Positions 5,946-42,877 of a stretch of 42,877 nt of DNA are shown here, one piece after another. Numbering within the stretch: the first letter of the stretch is position 1; each line of letters starts with the position of its first letter. This stretch comes from a virus: positions 1 through 42,877 of IMG/VR virus record IMGVR_UViG_3300032018_000009. The stretch is one strand, 5' to 3'. Made by a program: the position numbers and the translations under genes. The notes under the pieces are model-generated. The model ran no database searches, had not been told where the DNA came from, and was given only the letters and a program-made list of their open reading frames with translations.

Positions 5946-7341
5946 AGGGAAAAAAGTTGTTAACATCCAAGCAGATAAAAAATATCAAGGGCTTGGTAGT
6001 TTATTTTATGTTGAGAGCTCTATTCTTGGGCTTGCAACCAATTTAGAGGATAGTAAGCGTGAGCCGTTTCATGCGATGGAACTTTATGCTTTGCCTGATT
6101 TGCGGTATGGATGGATAAGTATCCCAAAAGAGACAATAATCTCTGTTCCTTCAATAAATCATATCCAATTAGTTTCTCCAATTACTTATTTAGTTGGTTG
6201 GGAAGGTTCAAGTTTGTATGTTTATGATTTAGAACAGCGAGAAGTTCCTTTCTATACTAATTTAGATGCTAATATTAGTTCAGCAATTTTTCTTAATGAT
6301 GCAACTATAGCTTGTATATGCCCTCTTTCACAAAATCCTTTAAAAATCATTTTTTACAAAAGCGGTGTTGGAAGATCTTATAATAAAAAAGGCGATTATT
6401 TAGCTTTTTTTAAAGGGCGTCTTTTTATAGCAGAAGGTAAAATTTTGCATTTTACAAGTGCAAGCATTACAGATCCAAGTTTTAGTGGTGACCCCTTTGC
6501 TTCAGAAAATGGTGGTGGATATTTAATTTTAAATTATCCTCAAGTTTCAAAGGTTTGTTATCTTTTACCCTATGAGGATATGCTATACATTTTTACTGAT
6601 GGGGGGCTCTATGTTTTAACTGTTTCTTTAGCGAGTAATTCTCCTTCTACTTTTTATATTATTGATGCTGGTATTAATTATAATTTTTCTAAGGCAAAAG
6701 TTTTGCAAATAGGAGATACTTTAGCAGTTATTACAAACGTAGGCATGTTTTTCTTATCTGGAATGAGTTTAGAAAGATTTGATTGGCCAGTTGCTGATCA
6801 ATTGAATAAGTTAGATTATATGAAAGCAGGCGGTGGGTATTTCCAAGGGCAAAGATTAATTTTAGTTCCTTATATAACTGACAAAAAAACTTTAGTTTAC
6901 AGCATGGAACATAGTCAATTTTTTTATTTGCCATATAAAACAGCTAATTGCATTTTTTCTCCAAGTGGATTGACTTATGATTTTTCTCAAACAACCTTAA
7001 GAATATTGTTTGATAACACAAATTATTATTATCCATTCCATTTTGCTTCTGTGCTCCATGATTACAATCAGCCTCGTTTTAAATATATTAAAGAAGTTTG
7101 GGTAAATGGTAAAGGTGATTTTCAAGTTGATTTTTTATATGATTATTATGGGATTTCTACAAAATATAGTCAAATAGGTGCGAATTTATCGTATTATCGA
7201 AAAAGTTTTGGTGCAAAAGGGTATAAAATAGGTTTGCAAATTACATCTTCTACAGAATGCGAACCTTTTGCTTATGTAAATAAAATCCGTTTAACTTTGC
7301 ATCTATTAGGAAGCGTGAATTATCTCTATTATAGAGGTTAA
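5938..7341 (+). CDS. Tail nozzle / tail tubular protein B-like
   Basis: A 467-aa, beta-rich protein full of Tyr, Phe and Gly. Repeated strand motifs such as LFIAEGKILHFTSASI, YEDMLYIFTDGGLYVLTV and TLAVITNVGMFFLSG are typical of the propeller-like nozzle proteins (T7 gp12 / P22 gp10 group). It directly follows the adaptor gene with an 8-base overlap, the same order as in those phages. It would form the tube end through which DNA leaves. Shorter than T7 gp12 (about 790 aa), but P22 gp10 is of similar length. Assigned by motif style and synteny. Confidence 0.65.
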   Translation: MSKGKKVVNIQADKKYQGLGSLFYVESSILGLATNLEDSKREPFHAMELYALPDLRYGWISIPKETIISVPSINHIQLVSPITYLVGWEGSSLYVYDLEQREVPFYTNLDANISSAIFLNDATIACICPLSQNPLKIIFYKSGVGRSYNKKGDYLAFFKGRLFIAEGKILHFTSASITDPSFSGDPFASENGGGYLILNYPQVSKVCYLLPYEDMLYIFTDGGLYVLTVSLASNSPSTFYIIDAGINYNFSKAKVLQIGDTLAVITNVGMFFLSGMSLERFDWPVADQLNKLDYMKAGGGYFQGQRLILVPYITDKKTLVYSMEHSQFFYLPYKTANCIFSPSGLTYDFSQTTLRILFDNTNYYYPFHFASVLHDYNQPRFKYIKEVWVNGKGDFQVDFLYDYYGISTKYSQIGANLSYYRKSFGAKGYKIGLQITSSTECEPFAYVNKIRLTLHLLGSVNYLYYRG

Positions 7342-7346
7342 TTAAA

Positions 7347-7724
7347 ATGTTGTATGTTAAAATAAACAAAAATTATTATGACAAGCTTGAGGATTGGATG
7401 TATGATATTGATAAAGATCATTTAAATTTTTTAGATACTTTGCAGGCATTGTACAAGGCTTATACTGGAGAAGAAAGGTTGTTAAATTTGCCTGTTATAA
7501 AACAGGTAATTAAATCAGAAGATTGGAGCGAGATATCTCTTTGGAATTACAGAATACATTTAGATTTATATCAATTCATGGCTGATTTAGGAGCAAGGTT
7601 AACACCACCGATAGTAGTGATACCGAAGATACTGAAGGCTTCAAGCGAGGAAGATGCAATATATAAAGAGTATTTAATGCATCGGGACATTGAGCAGTTT
7701 TTAATAAGCTTAGGAGGTGGTTAA
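7347..7724 (+). CDS. Unknown protein between nozzle and ejection genes
   Basis: A 125-aa, mainly helical, aromatic-rich protein (MLYVKINKNYYDKLEDWMYD, a long central helix, and the tail KEYLMHRDIEQFLISLGGG). It starts 6 bases after the nozzle gene and its C-terminal codons contain the ribosome site of the next gene (GGAGG at 7711-7715). No family is recognised. A virion role is probable from its place in the tail/ejection operon. Confidence 0.65.
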   Translation: MLYVKINKNYYDKLEDWMYDIDKDHLNFLDTLQALYKAYTGEERLLNLPVIKQVIKSEDWSEISLWNYRIHLDLYQFMADLGARLTPPIVVIPKILKASSEEDAIYKEYLMHRDIEQFLISLGGG

Positions 7725-25060: not shown

Positions 25061-25567
25061 TTAATAAACTTTGCTGAAAACAAAATCAAAATCTAAAGTT
25101 TTTAGCTCCTCTTCTGAGAGCACCTTGCCCTCTGGCAATCTTGTTCTGAGGACAAAGTGGAGGGCGCTGTCGCCCTCTCTCATTTTGACTGCTATTCTGT
25201 TATAGGGTATCTCTACCCCTAATAGCTCTGTGAGCACTTTTGCAGTTGCCTCGTGCCCAATTGCCGATACAAAAGAATTTCTTCTGACAAGCCCCTTAGC
25301 GGTTTTCAAGTCAACTTTTAAAATCTCAACCAAATACCGATCCTTCTCTTGCAAATCAACAGGTATAACAAGTGTGTTTAAAATGTAAAGCATACCCGCA
25401 CCTCCTTTTTTTTGATTTTTTTGCTGAGTTATTAACTCCCAGATGCCCTCTTTTAGTAGATCCGACTTCGTTCTCCCGAACATTCGGGCAATCTTGCAAA
25501 GTTTCTGATATAGCTTTGGGTTAACTGCCGTTCCTATTCGCTCTTCTACTGTCTTCATTTTTGGCAT
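25061..25567 (-). CDS. RHH domain fused in frame to AcrIII-1 (DUF1874) viral ring nuclease
   Basis: 168 aa. Residues 1-50 look like a ribbon-helix-helix DNA-binding domain (ERIGTAVNPKLYQKLCKIAR, then MFGRTKSDLLKEGIWELI). From M59 (base 25393) the protein matches the DUF1874/AcrIII-1 family: MLYILNTLVIPVD, FVSAIGHEATAKVLTELLGV, NRIAVKM, RTRLPEGKVLSEEEL. Numbered from M59, His47 lies in GHEATA with R66, R85 and E88 in the positions conserved in SIRV1 gp29. Known family members degrade cyclic tetra-adenylate and so switch off type III CRISPR effectors. An ideal ribosome site (AAGGAGGTG) sits in the linker codons, so a separate 110-aa nuclease is probably also made. Confidence 0.88.
   Translation of the reverse strand: MPKMKTVEERIGTAVNPKLYQKLCKIARMFGRTKSDLLKEGIWELITQQKNQKKGGAGMLYILNTLVIPVDLQEKDRYLVEILKVDLKTAKGLVRRNSFVSAIGHEATAKVLTELLGVEIPYNRIAVKMREGDSALHFVLRTRLPEGKVLSEEELKTLDFDFVFSKVY
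25398..25422 (-). promoter_or_regulatory. Internal ribosome site and A-runs at the RHH/AcrIII-1 junction
   Basis: On the minus strand a run of seven A (25416-25422), TC, and a run of eight A (25406-25413) lead into AAGGAGGTG (25399-25407), 5 bases before ATG at 25393. These bases encode the linker QKNQKKGGAG in the long frame. The A runs are possible slippage or assembly-error sites. Confidence 0.8.
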
Positions 25568-25712
25568 TATTCCCCTCCAAATACTTTTTGCAAAGAAGGT
25601 TTATAGCCCGCTCAAACAACTCTGCATAACTTATTCCTTCTTCTCTACAATAATTATTTATCCGCTCAAGAAACCATCTTGACACTCTAAAAACGATAAT
25701 CCTCTCAGCCAT
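25521..25712 (-). CDS. Ribbon-helix-helix DNA-binding protein
   Basis: A 63-aa protein. AERIIVFRVSRWFLERINNY followed by CREEGISYAELFERAINLL has the beta strand - helix - helix pattern of Arc/CopG/RHH repressors, and a basic tail follows. The last 47 bases overlap the start of the next RHH-AcrIII-1 gene in another frame. It is the first coding gene behind tRNA-Arg. RHH proteins act as dimers, often autoregulating. The palindrome CTTGAC-N11-GTCAAG in the early promoters and the periodic arrays at 33.5 kb are candidate targets (inference). Confidence 0.72.
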   Translation of the reverse strand: MAERIIVFRVSRWFLERINNYCREEGISYAELFERAINLLCKKYLEGNNAKNEDSRRANRNGS

Positions 25713-31744: not shown

Positions 31745-31773
31745 ATCTTAGTTAAACAAGCTAAAAAGGTCAA
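31745..31773 (-). promoter_or_regulatory. Early promoter upstream of the 515-aa gene
   Basis: On the minus strand TTGACC (31768-31773), 17 bases, TAAGAT (31745-31750). It starts the first early operon. It has the same TAAGAT -10 box as the promoter at 32749. Confidence 0.7.
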
Positions 31774-31970
31774 GCTTGATTTTAGCTTGTTTTAGCTTGT
31801 TTAGGCTTGGCTTGGCTTGGTTTTCTTGTTTTTTTCTTGTTTTTTCTTAAAATTTTTTGGCTTGGCTTGGCTTGAAAAAATTGGCTTTAAATTGGCTTAT
31901 ATTGGCTTGAATTTGAAAAGGTAGGGTTTGAATACTACCTTGACCTAAAAAGGGCATCGTAGGGCATTTT
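31774..31970. repeat. Short-unit AT-rich repeats upstream of the early operon
   Basis: Runs of TTAGCTTGTT, TTGGC (three or four in tandem, twice), TTTTTCTTG and ATTGGCTT fill 31774-31911. AGGGCAT-type repeats with 10-20-base spacing follow from about 31937 (AGGGCATCGTAGGGCATTTT). Gene-free. It could unwind easily or bind several protein copies; no coding signal is seen. Confidence 0.65.
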
Positions 31971-32051: not shown

Positions 32052-32720
32052 TTAATCCTCAAAACCACCATCAACCTCTTCTATCTCTTCCTCTAAAGTC
32101 TGCTCCACTTCCCGAACTAATATCGAATTACCCGCCACAGTCACTCCCTCAATCCTCTTCTCAGCCTTTAATATACTTTTCAATTGAAACAAAACCTCTG
32201 ACAGCCTCTTCTCTATCATAACATAATAACCACTCACCATGCTCCTATTCGGCTTGGTTATCCTTACCGCTATACAATACTGCCTCTTACCCTCTCTCTC
32301 CCAATACCTCAATATCCCTAAATCACCTAATAACTTCAATACCCCTTGCTTACTATACCCTAAATCAAATGCCCTATCTAAAAACTCCTGCATCGTCCCC
32401 CTCTTCAATAATATTAATCCCCTCTTCTTATCAAAACCCTCCATCTCCCCATTGTCATAACTAACACTCCACTCCTTCTTCCTCTCTAATACCCACTGCC
32501 AAAATACTTTTAACAACTCTAACTCCTCTCTACTCAAATCCCCTACCTCTAACCGCACTTCCCCTACCTTCCCCTCAACCCTCTTCAACTTCCTCCCTAA
32601 TAACCGCTCCAATATCAACCGCATGTCCTCTAACTCCCTCCTCATCTCCCGCACCTCTACCACTAAACTATCCACTAACCCCACTAATCCCTCTACCAAA
32701 CGCTCAATCTTACTCTCCAT
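32052..32720 (-). CDS. Coiled-coil protein with winged-helix-like domain; possible origin/array-binding protein
   Basis: A 222-aa protein. Residues 1-45 form a coiled coil (VEGLVGLVDSLVVEVREMRR). About 70-150 contain a helix-rich domain ending in a winged-helix-like part (MQEFLDRAFDLGYSKQGVLK, LLGDLGILRYWER then GKRQYCIAVRI). The C-terminus is acidic. It is the first leftward gene next to the repeat-filled control region and has its own promoter (32749-32777). Iteron-binding initiators and partition proteins are commonly encoded beside their sites, so this is the best candidate for such a role. No named family is recognised. Confidence 0.62.
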   Translation of the reverse strand: MESKIERLVEGLVGLVDSLVVEVREMRRELEDMRLILERLLGRKLKRVEGKVGEVRLEVGDLSREELELLKVFWQWVLERKKEWSVSYDNGEMEGFDKKRGLILLKRGTMQEFLDRAFDLGYSKQGVLKLLGDLGILRYWEREGKRQYCIAVRITKPNRSMVSGYYVMIEKRLSEVLFQLKSILKAEKRIEGVTVAGNSILVREVEQTLEEEIEEVDGGFED

Positions 32721-32748: not shown

Positions 32749-32777
32749 ATCTTAACTCAACCTCTGTTCTTTGTCAA
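32749..32777 (-). promoter_or_regulatory. Promoter of the 222-aa gene
   Basis: On the minus strand TTGACA (32772-32777), 17 bases, TAAGAT (32749-32754). The -35 box lies inside the first iteron-like repeat (GTCAATAGTATTACAGCAT on the other strand), so a repeat-binding protein would repress it. Confidence 0.75.
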
Positions 32778-33270
32778 TAGTATTACAGCATGACATCATC
32801 ATCCTTAGCCCTTGTCAATAGTATTACAGCATTACAAATATGACAACCTGCCCTTTATATGCCCGCAATGCCCCTCTGTCGATACTATGACAGTATTACA
32901 AGGATTACAGTCAATAGTATTACAGCATTACAAGCATGACAACTTACCCTCTGCTATCTTTCCCTCTCTCCCTGTCATACTATTACAGCATGACAAGTAT
33001 TACAAACTAACCCCCTATATATCCCTGATGTCCCCCTGTAATGCTATGACAGCATTACAAGTATTACAATATGCCCATTCCTGTACTTCTCAGATGCTCT
33101 CTCCGTTTCGTTCTATTTTGCTGATGGTGTTCTTTTTTCTGTTTTGTAATGCTGTCATACTTTCTCTGAAATACTAATAAATTCTACTTTTCCTATGATA
33201 TGTAATACTGTTACTAAACTATTATCATACTGTAATCTGTGTGTCAATACTTTACAGCATTACAGTCATA
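32774..33270. repeat. Iteron-like repeats built from TATTACAG/CATTACAA octamers
   Basis: TCAATAGTATTACAGCAT is present at 32774 and recurs at about 32816 and 32911. Variants with ATKACA boxes follow (GTCGATACTATGACAGTATT, GTCATACTATTACAGCATGA, GTAATGCTATGACAGCATTA) and two more, one inverted, lie near 33145 and 33242. Within a unit the ATTACA/ATGACA boxes are 8 or 9 bp apart. At least seven units in about 500 bp, spaced by C/T-rich filler. Frames through it look like chance. Confidence 0.8.
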
Positions 33271-33495: not shown

Positions 33496-33529
33496 CTTCT
33501 CCGTTTGCTCGCTGTGGGTTCTGGACGAT

Positions 33530-33785
33530 ACTCTATCAATCAGGCATTCAGGCACTTAGCCGTTCGGTCACTCGGTCTCTCGGGCACTCCGCACTTCGGA
33601 ACTCAGGCTCTTCGGAACTCAAGCACTTCGGCGATCGACCACTCGGCCGTTCAGACAATCAGACACTCGACCACTCGACCACTCGATCACTCGATCACTC
33701 GATCACTCGATCACTCGATCACTCGGATAATCAGGCATTCAGGCACTTAAGCATTTGACCGCTTGACCACTTGACCACTCAGAGC
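33530..33785 (+). repeat. Octamer array, consensus CTCGRNCA, strict 8-bp period (about 32 units)
   Basis: Five perfect CTCGATCA units run from 33682 to 33721, flanked by CTCGACCA (33666, 33674). Degenerate units in the same register extend left (ATCAGACA, TTCAGACA, CTCGGCCG, ATCGACCA, back to about 33530) and right (CTCGGATA, ATCAGGCA, TTCAGGCA, CTTGACCA twice, to 33785). The + strand frame through it gives an 8-residue repeat peptide and has no ribosome site. Confidence 0.88.
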
Positions 33786-33810
33786 TCAAGCAATCTGTAT
33801 TTAACCACTC

Positions 33811-33898
33811 TGCATTCGTTTATTCGCTTTTTCGTTTATTCGCATAATCGCTTATTCGTTCTTTCGAGCAGTCGGCGACTTGGCTACTGAGAAACTGA
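33811..33898 (+). repeat. Second octamer array, TTCG every 8 bp (11 units)
   Basis: TTCG at 33815, 33823, 33831, 33839, 33855 and 33863; ATCG at 33847; GTCG at 33871; CTTG at 33879; CTGA at 33887 and 33895. All are exactly 8 bp apart, but the phase differs from the CTCGRNCA array. The filler between boxes is A/T-rich. Confidence 0.82.
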
Positions 33899-33902
33899 GC
33901 TT

Positions 33903-33997
33903 GTGAAAAATTTCACGAGCCCTTGACAAGGGCATGTGAAAAAATTCACGTGAAAAAATTCACAAAGTCCTTGTCAAGAGATTGTGAAAAATTTCAC
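33903..33997. promoter_or_regulatory. Dyad-symmetric cluster of four GTGAAA..TTTCAC boxes (operator or origin)
   Basis: 14-bp boxes GTGAAAAATTTCAC (33903-33916 and 33984-33997) flank two abutting GTGAAAAAATTCAC boxes (33936-33949 and 33950-33963). CCTTGACAAGG and CCTTGTCAAG lie between the outer and inner boxes on either side, so the whole 95 bp is an imperfect palindrome centred at the inner junction. The outer boxes with flanks read TGTGA-N6-TCACR, like CRP/FNR-family sites. Confidence 0.78.
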
Positions 33998-34147
33998 ATA
34001 GACTTGACTTTTGGCAAGTTTAGGCATAGGCAAGGTAAGCTTGTTTTTTTGGTTTAAAAATTTTAGCTAAGATAAGAAAAAAAGAGAAAAGAGAAAAAAA
34101 GGCAAGATTAAAAAGAAAGACTTTTTAAATTTGGCTTTTTAGAGGAC

Positions 34148-34175
34148 TTGACAAGTTAAAAATTATGCTTATATT
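34148..34175 (+). promoter_or_regulatory. Promoter of the winged-helix gene
   Basis: TTGACA (34148-34153), 16 bases, TATATT (34170-34175), about 65 bases before the ATG at 34240. It overlaps a CTTGACAAG element like those in the box cluster. Confidence 0.65.
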
Positions 34176-34239
34176 GATGCTTAAGATGCAAGGGCAAGGG
34201 CAAGTTAAAAAAACAAAAAACAAAAAAGGGGGGATCGGT

Positions 34240-34527
34240 ATGGATAGGATTAAAGAACAAATTAAAGAATTTATAGTCAAAAAAGTTAGAGAGAATGTAT
34301 CCGAACAAAGACCTTTTTTCTTTGTTAGATGGTCAGGATTATTTGAATTATGTCAGAATTACAATTTAGATTTATTGAAGTTAATTGATGAATTACATTC
34401 CGAAGGTAGAATTAGAAAAGCCCTTATTAAGGGCAAATTAGCTTTAACAACGGTAGAATTGGCTAAAAAAGCTAATAAAAAAGCTAAGAATATTCTTGAA
34501 GAATTTGCTCAATTTGCTCAAAGATAA
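34240..34527 (+). CDS. Small winged-helix-like regulator
   Basis: ATG at 34240 follows GGGGGGATCGGT; an upstream in-frame ATG at 34165 overlaps the promoter and is rejected. The 95-aa product is basic: a leading helix (DRIKEQIKEFIVKKVRENVS), FFFVRWSGLFELCQNYN, then LLKLIDELHSEGRIRKALIK and GKLALTTVEL, a helix - helix - two-strand wing pattern seen in small DNA-binding proteins. It is a one-gene unit with its own promoter and strong terminator between the early and late modules, as expected of a switch regulator. No named family is claimed. Confidence 0.68.
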   Translation: MDRIKEQIKEFIVKKVRENVSEQRPFFFVRWSGLFELCQNYNLDLLKLIDELHSEGRIRKALIKGKLALTTVELAKKANKKAKNILEEFAQFAQR

Positions 34528-39390: not shown

Positions 39391-40473
39391 ATGGATTGGG
39401 AAGGTAAGATTTACGATTATTTATTAACTTATAAAAAATATGAAGTTAGATGGAGGCAGAAGTGGGTTGATTATAAAAAGTGGATTGATTTTGGTCGCAA
39501 TTGGACACCAGCTTCTGAGAAATATTATACTGAAGAAGAAATGCTAAAAGAGATATTGGAGCCATGTTATAAATTTTTGTGGGTTAAATTGTATAGTAAA
39601 GATATAATTATTATCCCTTTTGAACCTCCTGTTAGTGGATGGTTATGGCAATGCGATAAAGTAAAATACGTAGGATATGTAGATCTTGTAAATTTAAGTG
39701 ACATTGAATATATTGATCATGGTATGTTTTTTAGCCCTGATGGCACTAATTTATATGTATCAGGTTTTTTAGGTAGAGGGAATATATTTTGGTTTAAATT
39801 GGCAACGCCTTGGGATATAACTACAGCTATTTTCCAAAATACAATGAATGAAGACGCCTTAGGGGCAATTTTAGGGAGGCCTAAGAGTATATATTTTTCA
39901 CCAGATGGAAATAATTATTATACTTCTGTTCTTAAAGAGGATGGTACTTTTTTTTCGCAAATTACTTTAACAAACCCATGGGATATTACAACAATGTATA
40001 CACATAATGGAGTTCGATTAAATTGGTTTGTTTATAACATTAATTTTAACCTTGATGGCACTAAATTGTATTTATTTGGTCATGATACATTTCAATATAT
40101 TTTAGTTGAATATACTTTATCAACTCCTTGGGATATTTCTACAATTGTTAATCTTGATGGGGATGTGTCCTTACATTTAAATGAAGTGCCTCCTGATGAG
40201 GTTATTGATAGTCTTTATTTTAAACCAGATGGAAGTGGTTTTTATGTGGCAACTTATAGTGGTGATGTTCTTTATTATGATTTGCCAACCCCATGGAGTT
40301 TGAGTGATTATATATATAAAGGTATATGTTTTAATCCGAAAAGTATTTTAAATGCAATTGATATATACCCTTATGGGGGGACGTTTAACTTTTTCATGAG
40401 CTATAATGGAAAGTTTGCTTATGTTAGTTTTGAACTTGGAACTCAAATTTTTATGTTTACCAGTGGAACTTAA
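39391..40473 (+). CDS. Beta-propeller tail protein
   Basis: 360 aa. After an N-terminal helical part (residues 1-75), four or five repeats of about 48 residues carry FSPDGTNLYVSG / FNLDGTKLYLFG / FKPDGSGFYVAT followed by a strand and TPWDITT or TPWDIST. This repeat is common in phage tail and appendage proteins and is predicted to form a beta-propeller. It lies between the glycine-rich adhesin and the lysis genes, so an accessory host-binding or fibre-associated role is likely. The repeats are unrelated in sequence to the LVIVD repeats of the fibre gene. Confidence 0.72.
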   Translation: MDWEGKIYDYLLTYKKYEVRWRQKWVDYKKWIDFGRNWTPASEKYYTEEEMLKEILEPCYKFLWVKLYSKDIIIIPFEPPVSGWLWQCDKVKYVGYVDLVNLSDIEYIDHGMFFSPDGTNLYVSGFLGRGNIFWFKLATPWDITTAIFQNTMNEDALGAILGRPKSIYFSPDGNNYYTSVLKEDGTFFSQITLTNPWDITTMYTHNGVRLNWFVYNINFNLDGTKLYLFGHDTFQYILVEYTLSTPWDISTIVNLDGDVSLHLNEVPPDEVIDSLYFKPDGSGFYVATYSGDVLYYDLPTPWSLSDYIYKGICFNPKSILNAIDIYPYGGTFNFFMSYNGKFAYVSFELGTQIFMFTSGT

Positions 40474-42237: not shown

Positions 42238-42877
42238 ATGAAATTTTTGCGCAAAGTTTCACCGATTGCTACAGGCGCCATTACGAATACTGTTGGGGGG
42301 GATTTAACAGTTCAAGGGAATATAAATATTCAAGCAGGTAATAATGCTTCTATTGGAACGGTTGATAACTATAATTTGAGTTTGAGAACGAATAACGCTG
42401 ATAGAATTTTTATCACAAACACTGGCAACGTTGGCATCGGGACGGCAAGTCCATTGGAAAAATTAGATGTTATTGGTAATATTCAGAATATTCTAAGTGC
42501 CGATGCTCCACCAACTAGAATTGGAGCAGTAACTTTAAATGAAGGTGAAGACTATGGTACTTCAATAGCTGTTTCTGGAAGGTATGCTTATATTGTAACA
42601 GAGACATTCCCAGCCAAGGTAGTAGTAGTTGATATTTCAAATCCAGCTTCACCAACTAGAATTGGAGCAGTAACTTTAAATGAAGGTGAAGATAGTGGTG
42701 CTTCAATAGCTGTTTCTGGGAGGTATGCTTATATTGTAACAATGACGGTTCCAGCCAAGGTAGTAGTAGTTGATATTTCAAATCCAGCTTCACCAACTAG
42801 AATTGGAGCAGTAACTTTAAATGAAGGTGAAGATAGTGGTGCTTCAATAGCTGTTTCTGGGAGGTATGCTTATATTG
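42238..42877 (+). CDS. LVIVD-repeat tail fibre, N-terminal part (continues at base 3)
   Basis: ATG 42238 behind AAGGGAGGTGTGATGTT. The first 85 residues are a fibre stem (FLRKVSPIATGAITNTVGG, then RIFITNTGNVGIGTASPLEKL). The frame then enters half a repeat starting at PPTRIGAV and two full 47-residue LVIVD repeats and runs off the end. Joining through the 30-base overlap gives about 660 aa: half + seven full + half repeats, flanked on both sides by GNVGIGT..P..KL.V.G motifs. The two halves complement each other, as in propellers closed by pairing of first and last strands. Confidence 0.88.
   Translation, partial: MKFLRKVSPIATGAITNTVGGDLTVQGNINIQAGNNASIGTVDNYNLSLRTNNADRIFITNTGNVGIGTASPLEKLDVIGNIQNILSADAPPTRIGAVTLNEGEDYGTSIAVSGRYAYIVTETFPAKVVVVDISNPASPTRIGAVTLNEGEDSGASIAVSGRYAYIVTMTVPAKVVVVDISNPASPTRIGAVTLNEGEDSGASIAVSGRYAYI
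42510..42877 (+). repeat. Tandem 141-bp LVIVD coding repeats (right part of array)
   Basis: Half a unit from about 42510, one full unit beginning with the ETFPAK codons near 42600, and a second (MTVPAK type) reaching the window end. Bases 42848-42877 equal bases 1-30, so the array is continuous with the left end. The true copy number cannot be known from this assembly. Confidence 0.93.

Follow-up and report, generated by a model that had tools for sequence, protein, structure and literature searches.

A tandem array of 8-bp units occupies a noncoding gap between divergent gene blocks in the window, by which we mean the whole 42,877-nucleotide stretch of DNA analyzed here, from a bacterial virus of a hot spring. 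The array lies at the genome's cumulative GC-skew minimum and adjoins a dyad, and one relative carries an octamer block at the syntenic place. From this setting we infer a candidate replication origin, and we tentatively propose that the array, an octamer tandem repeat of a known kind, is a satellite in the origin of this thermophile phage whose units may serve as direct-orientation sites for a phage DNA-binding protein.

The genome and its relatives

The window is related, in circularly permuted form, to Hydrogenobaculum phage 1 (HP1; KP282676), with 93% identity in PrimPol and 98% in the terminase. Its termini share a 171-bp exact overlap and a related contig, G003, spans the window ends, indicating that the genome is circularly permuted or circular, at about 42.7 kb. 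The HP1 record (locus L089; 19,351 bp), although labeled "complete," aligns only to 8.6-28.8 kb of the window and therefore probably represents under half of a genome of about 42 kb. HP1 was assigned to Hydrogenobaculum via CRISPR spacers (PMC7689252), and it is from this assignment that we take the host of the window.

Searches with the portal, PrimPol, 222-aa, 95-aa, and terminase proteins identified G001, G003, G004, L004, HP1, and G005 as relatives; a PrimPol search of genome contigs returned none. Among the HP1-like relatives, only G001 (IMGVR 3300034696_000043, loci L005 and L101) covers the gap with both flanking genes, and G003, G004, HP1, and L004 stop short of it.

Three further features of these sequences were observed. 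GANTC is absent from the window, where about 148 occurrences are expected, and is found 5 times across all six sequences versus 521 expected, which suggests that the host has a HinfI-like restriction system; strong avoidance extends to CTAG and CGCG. In-frame 141-bp repeats at 1-776 and 42505-42877 correspond to LVIVD beta-propeller repeats (Pfam E 3.5e-43) and run across the assembly junction, which makes their copy number in the assembly uncertain. Lastly, GTTGCAATCGAACCATTATGGTA(TTGAAAT) occurs three times at the end of G005 (3300005298_000015; locus L316), at positions 39802, 39869, and 39937; with the short spacers between them, the copies resemble a small CRISPR array carried by a phage contig, and an assembly join could also account for them.

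An array of 47 octamers

Lag-8 identity and a dynamic-programming parse define the array and its internal features as follows.

33529-33900, plus strand: octamer array of 47 consecutive units, consensus CACTCGRN, core YANTCR
33538-33558, plus strand: 21-bp segment AATCAGGCATTCAGGCACTTA, repeated exactly at 33729-33749, 191 bp away
33680-33719, plus strand: five contiguous identical CACTCGAT units, read from the sequence and contained in a TRF repeat at 33664-33725 (period 8, 98%)
33729-33749, plus strand: second copy of AATCAGGCATTCAGGCACTTA, an exact duplicate of 33538-33558
33813-33876, plus strand: second block of octamers, TATTCGCT-type, whose syntenic counterpart in G001 (L005) is the octamer block at 7352-7407

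Identity at lag 8 reaches 0.665 over 33530-33785, compared with 0.26 +/- 0.03 in 2000 dinucleotide-preserving shuffles (z 13.7), whose ceiling across lags 1 to 16 was 0.39. Segments outside the perfect core are significant by themselves (33530-33663, z 7.6; 33726-33785, z 6.9; 33786-33885, z 5.5), and the array is the top lag-8 segment of the whole window. The autocorrelation check proposed with the original prediction of about 32 octamers in strict 8-bp register thus bears out the array, with a signal far above shuffles. Its length was underestimated: there are 47 units over 33529-33900, and the interval first described left out the second block at 33813-33876. The register is nearly strict. 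With steps of 7, 8, or 9 bp permitted, the step is 8 bp in 42 of 46 cases and 7 bp in the other four (33585/33592, 33776/33783, 33791/33798, and 33806/33813), with none of 9 bp; two of the four slips touch 33530-33785. Long runs of fixed 8-bp steps leave the parse no choice of register.

It had also been suggested that conservation seems to apply to the period and not to the exact sequence. The columns of CACTCGRN are instead very uneven (0.76, 1.11, 0.55, 2.00, 1.01, 0.43, 0.47, and 0.07 bits), part of this conservation being built in by the fit of the parse to a weight matrix. T4 is present in 47 of 47 units, A2 and C5 are mostly retained, and position 8 is random, indicating that the core YANTCR is kept in the array beyond the period alone. 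Every unit is in direct orientation, with 22 occurrences of YANTCR on the plus strand and 0 on the minus strand.

The array grows by copying, as judged from the five identical CACTCGAT units and the 21-bp exact duplicate. The former, noted already in the original prediction, are its most recent expansion; the latter, with copies 191 bp apart, points to segmental duplication within the array. A single copy of TAATCAGGCATTCGAG, a piece related to this duplicate, is found at about 7290 in L005. Unit similarity declines with unit separation, from 0.64 to 0.51, as slippage predicts. The DNA of the array shows no special secondary structure, folding worse than its shuffles (z +1.3), and is the most stable of the gap, not the least. 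A methylation-related cluster of GATC sites was considered and rejected, as the 6 of the window's 59 sites that fall within the array are unremarkable.

Alignment with relatives shows that the 8-bp period is kept at the syntenic place in G001. The strongest lag-8 segment of that contig is located there (z 7.5 over 7340-7420) and parses into seven CATTCGCT-type units with T4 in all seven; the core is common to both genomes, and the unit is different. Block A of the array (33529-33782) has no octamer counterpart in G001; the simplest account is that an older and shorter octamer element expanded in this lineage alone, and block A may alternatively have been lost in G001. In G005 (67% terminase identity), the surroundings of the skew minimum contain no octamer array. 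Pattern scans of viral contigs returned 83 and 19 stretches, the first set consisting mostly of tetranucleotide CATT/CACT repeats, with 28 that are not tetranucleotide. Horizontal spread of the same octamer was rejected by BLAST of this first set, in which the L005 contig is the sole phage relative of the window; one 49-bp match, within octamers, was to L044.

The gap as a candidate replication origin

The gap spans about 1.5 kb between a minus-strand gene with its start codon at 32720 and a plus-strand gene starting at 34240. The following features lie in it or flank it.

32052-32720, minus strand: gene for a 222-aa protein, 38% identical in L005; a low-confidence structure model (mean pLDDT 52) tentatively gives an N-terminal helix, likely a coiled coil, and a winged-helix-like region at residues 107-155
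32821-33072, plus strand: five 22-bp triple-box repeats (TATKACAGCATKACAAGTATKACA) to the left of the array, with boxes 8 and 9 bp apart
33902-33998, no strand assigned: dyad with 30-nt arms and four GTGAAAAATTTCAC-type palindromes, adjoining the array on the right
34000-34240, no strand assigned: AT-/purine-rich stretch adjoining the dyad; alignment shows part of it to be conserved in L005
34240-34527, plus strand: gene for a 95-aa helical protein (mean pLDDT 70), 57% identical in L005, with a promoter-like site at 34148-34175

The cumulative GC skew of the genome has its minimum at 33865. When the C-rich array is removed the minimum moves to 33502, just left of the cut and still inside the gap; as the gene strands switch in the same gap, transcription skew is inseparable from replication skew. 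The dyad folds well as single-stranded DNA (z -7.15 versus shuffles) and is kept in a shorter form at 7442-7483 of L005 (z -3.79). Against Rfam at a lax threshold it gave only two chance-level miRNA matches, far below gathering scores. Three of the five exact TTWTNCACA DnaA-consensus boxes in the window fall in the dyad, within 90 bp (33902-33991). The adjacent AT-rich stretch is modestly less stable than the genome mean, by 0.8 to 1.6 SD, and is a possible unwinding region.

The triple-box repeats consist of T(T/G)ACA at offsets 0, 8, and 17 and start at 32824, 32888, 32920, 32983, and 33047 (spacing 64/32/63/64 bp). None is expected by chance in the gap and none occurs elsewhere in the window, nor were any found in the relatives compared; in G001, neither these repeats nor the DnaA boxes are kept. 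Iterons, such as those of lambda O, are usually 17 to 22 bp long and spaced by about helical multiples. Like plasmid and phage iteron origins, the gap has direct repeats near an AT-rich stretch, whereas the array units are 8 bp long and contiguous; the triple-box repeats resemble classical iterons more than the octamers do.

A role as an origin handle, one of those originally proposed, fits this arrangement of divergent gap, skew minimum, dyad, and DnaA-like boxes, and has a parallel in the origins of Aquificae viruses. In those distantly related viruses, a divergent gap of 750 to 1350 bp at the GC-skew switch carries stem-loop-forming repeats and is the proposed bidirectional origin, the proposal being that they replicate like mini bacterial chromosomes; HP1 is a peripheral member of their network (PMC7689252). 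The likeness to "Pyrovirus," TOSV OS3173, and others extends to divergent blocks, a strong skew switch, a noncoding gap of about 0.75 to 1.5 kb, repeats, and stem-loops (PMC7689252), and the window indeed has divergent blocks at its skew minimum and a stem-loop-forming dyad. Gene types are similar as well (DUF927 primase/helicase, Cas4-like nuclease, and a STIV-type Acr-like protein). A difference is that the published description of the Aquificae virus gaps speaks of stem-loop repeats and not of octamer arrays (PMC7689252).

Two other repeats were observed near the flanking genes. The 95-aa gene lies between complementary repeats about 335 bp apart (34185-34204/34537-34556 in the window; 7670-7690/8004-8024 in L005). 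Their unit is GGGCAA (6 bp) in the window and GGCAA (5 bp) in L005; both arms have changed together, suggesting selected 5'-3' pairing in the transcript or the DNA. An array of period 10 (AGCTTGTTTT) separates the 222-aa gene from the gene next to it and is kept in three relatives (window 31768-31880, G001 7158-7285, and G003 34386-34506).

Binding sites or a by-product of slippage

In the mechanism that we propose, the array would belong to a region of an HP1-like Hydrogenobaculum phage that holds the replication origin and divergent promoters. A short block of octamers in an ancestor would have grown into the array through slippage and unequal exchange, gaining copies in exact 8-bp steps, and point mutation, mostly transitions, would then have diversified the units apart from the core YANTCR. 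The result would be a row of about 45 sites in direct orientation, at 8-bp intervals, to which a DNA-binding protein of the phage would attach. Such a protein may cover the duplex alongside the dyad and the AT-rich stretch, contributing to the assembly or regulation of initiation.

The best candidate for the binder is the 222-aa protein with its modeled coiled-coil and winged-helix-like features, which is transcribed away from the array and might alternatively bind the iteron-like repeats. The 95-aa protein is a candidate regulator or binder. No homologue of known function was found for the 222-aa protein, and fold searches with the models of both proteins, together with PDB sequence searches, gave no match.

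Nearly as likely is that slippage and unequal exchange generated the array as a simple-sequence repeat in noncoding DNA that tolerates it, functionless though it lies in the origin region, and we regard this by-product and a binding function as about evenly matched. Octamer arrays as such are ordinary. Five consecutive YANTCG octamers occur in more than 116 stretches of bacterial genomes, from unrelated bacteria of many phyla, and the commonest other arrays nearby have periods of 7 and 8 and cluster together. Several arrays among the pooled bacterial and viral loci have about 20 to 47 units, some being as long and degenerate as that of the phage. Heptameric repeats have been noted to be over-represented, and slippage has been offered as the explanation (PMC4692102). 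Like such long simple-sequence repeats (5- to 11-bp units, including the heptamers of Xanthomonas and Nostoc; PMC4692102), the array is a short tandem unit in mostly noncoding DNA with transition variants, its copy number or presence differs among relatives, and neighboring units are more alike. Indeed, tandem units above chance, neighbor similarity, and a copy-number difference between relatives were all found here. The lineage-specific block A, the internal 21-bp duplication with its local decay in similarity, and the lack of special secondary structure also fit a by-product.

Unlike long simple-sequence repeats, the array combines an invariant with a random column across its 47 units and occupies an origin-like position in a phage. 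Forward simulations of tandem duplication and mutation, matched for divergence and run under three mutation biases, produced an invariant together with a near-random column in 0 to 1.2% of runs. Among 10 degenerate control arrays, retrieved by a TCR-containing pattern and hence a biased rather than a clean null, 4 have an invariant column and none pairs it with a near-random one. The invariant T4 and random position 8 are therefore mild evidence for constraint on the core. Also difficult for a functionless repeat are the G001 octamers, which have the same core at the same place and form the top lag-8 segment of their contig.

On balance, the reading of the array as binding sites draws on the reality of the array, the skew minimum, the dyad kept in L005, the clustered DnaA boxes, the triple boxes, the syntenic G001 octamers, the rarity of its column pattern in neutral simulations, and the published origin gaps of Aquificae viruses (PMC7689252). 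Against it stand the octamer arrays of many unrelated bacteria, the 4 of 10 controls with an invariant column, the absence of block A from G001 and of an array at the G005 skew minimum, the slippage-like decay in similarity, the confounding of skew with gene strand, the lack of conservation of the DnaA and triple boxes in G001, and the high stability of the array DNA.

Other possible roles for the array

A more specific form of the binding hypothesis, which we consider unlikely, takes the array to be an octad analogue of the heptads bound by omega. A phage protein (222-aa or 95-aa) whose family went unrecognized by the libraries searched would polymerize at the origin along contiguous YANTCR sites of 8 bp, with successive units rotated by about 270 degrees, and the resulting helical filament would direct origin opening. 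The triple boxes 500 bp away, with their 8- and 9-bp steps, would then be a second array of nearly the same step.

Less probable still is an operator or silencer array, on which a spreading regulator would repress or switch two divergent early promoters. The array does lie between divergent genes with promoter-like sites at 32777 (minus strand) and 34148-34175 (plus strand), and the palindromes GTGAAAAATTTCAC and CTTGACAAG look operator-like, one of them being kept in L005. The array is, however, about 750 and 250 bp from these promoter-like sites, and neither sequence nor fold searches found a regulator.

We give little credence to a partition site (centromere), at which a ribbon-helix-helix (RHH) protein would polymerize along octamers in the way that omega/ParB of pSM19035 does along heptads, the parallel drawn in the original prediction. 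Two genes bear on it.

25061-25567, minus strand: 168-aa STIV-B116-like protein (B116 E 2.9e-27) with a weak N-terminal RHH_3 match (E 0.029, below the cut-off)
25521-25712, minus strand: 63-aa protein with a weak RHH_1 match (E 0.016, below the Pfam cut-off)

Like parS of pSM19035, the array is made of contiguous short non-palindromic repeats in noncoding DNA, with far more than the four contiguous repeats that omega function requires at minimum (PMC9499535), and its uniform units contain GATCACT, one base off WATCACW. The two RHH proteins attributed to the phage are present as matches, both below Pfam cut-offs; they are 8 kb from the array, fused to or beside the STIV-B116-like gene, and no clear RHH ParB adjoins the array. 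The unit is 8 bp and not 7 bp, all units are direct, and the core is YANTCR, with no WATCACW heptads. A Pfam scan of 50 ORFs, all but a few small ones, detected no ParA-type or other partition NTPase. Further, parS overlaps the par gene promoters (PMC9499535), whereas the array stands hundreds of base pairs from either promoter-like site. The omega parallel thus finds little support.

That the array is a packaging (pac) site or encodes a repeat protein is very improbable: the terminase gene is about 17 kb away with nothing linking terminase to the array, and, although all plus-strand frames are open across the uniform units (ORFs of 187 and 119 aa), the 8-bp period shifts the reading frame at each unit and there is no ORF of at least 60 aa at the syntenic place in L005.

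Implications

We are aware of no Aquificae virus whose origin has been tested. The gap described here, with its phased triple boxes, octamer array, and dyad with DnaA-like boxes, is a compact and testable origin candidate. If the array is bound, contiguous 8-bp steps would be unusual for a protein that coats DNA; if it is unbound, it would cleanly illustrate how simple repeats can give the appearance of design.
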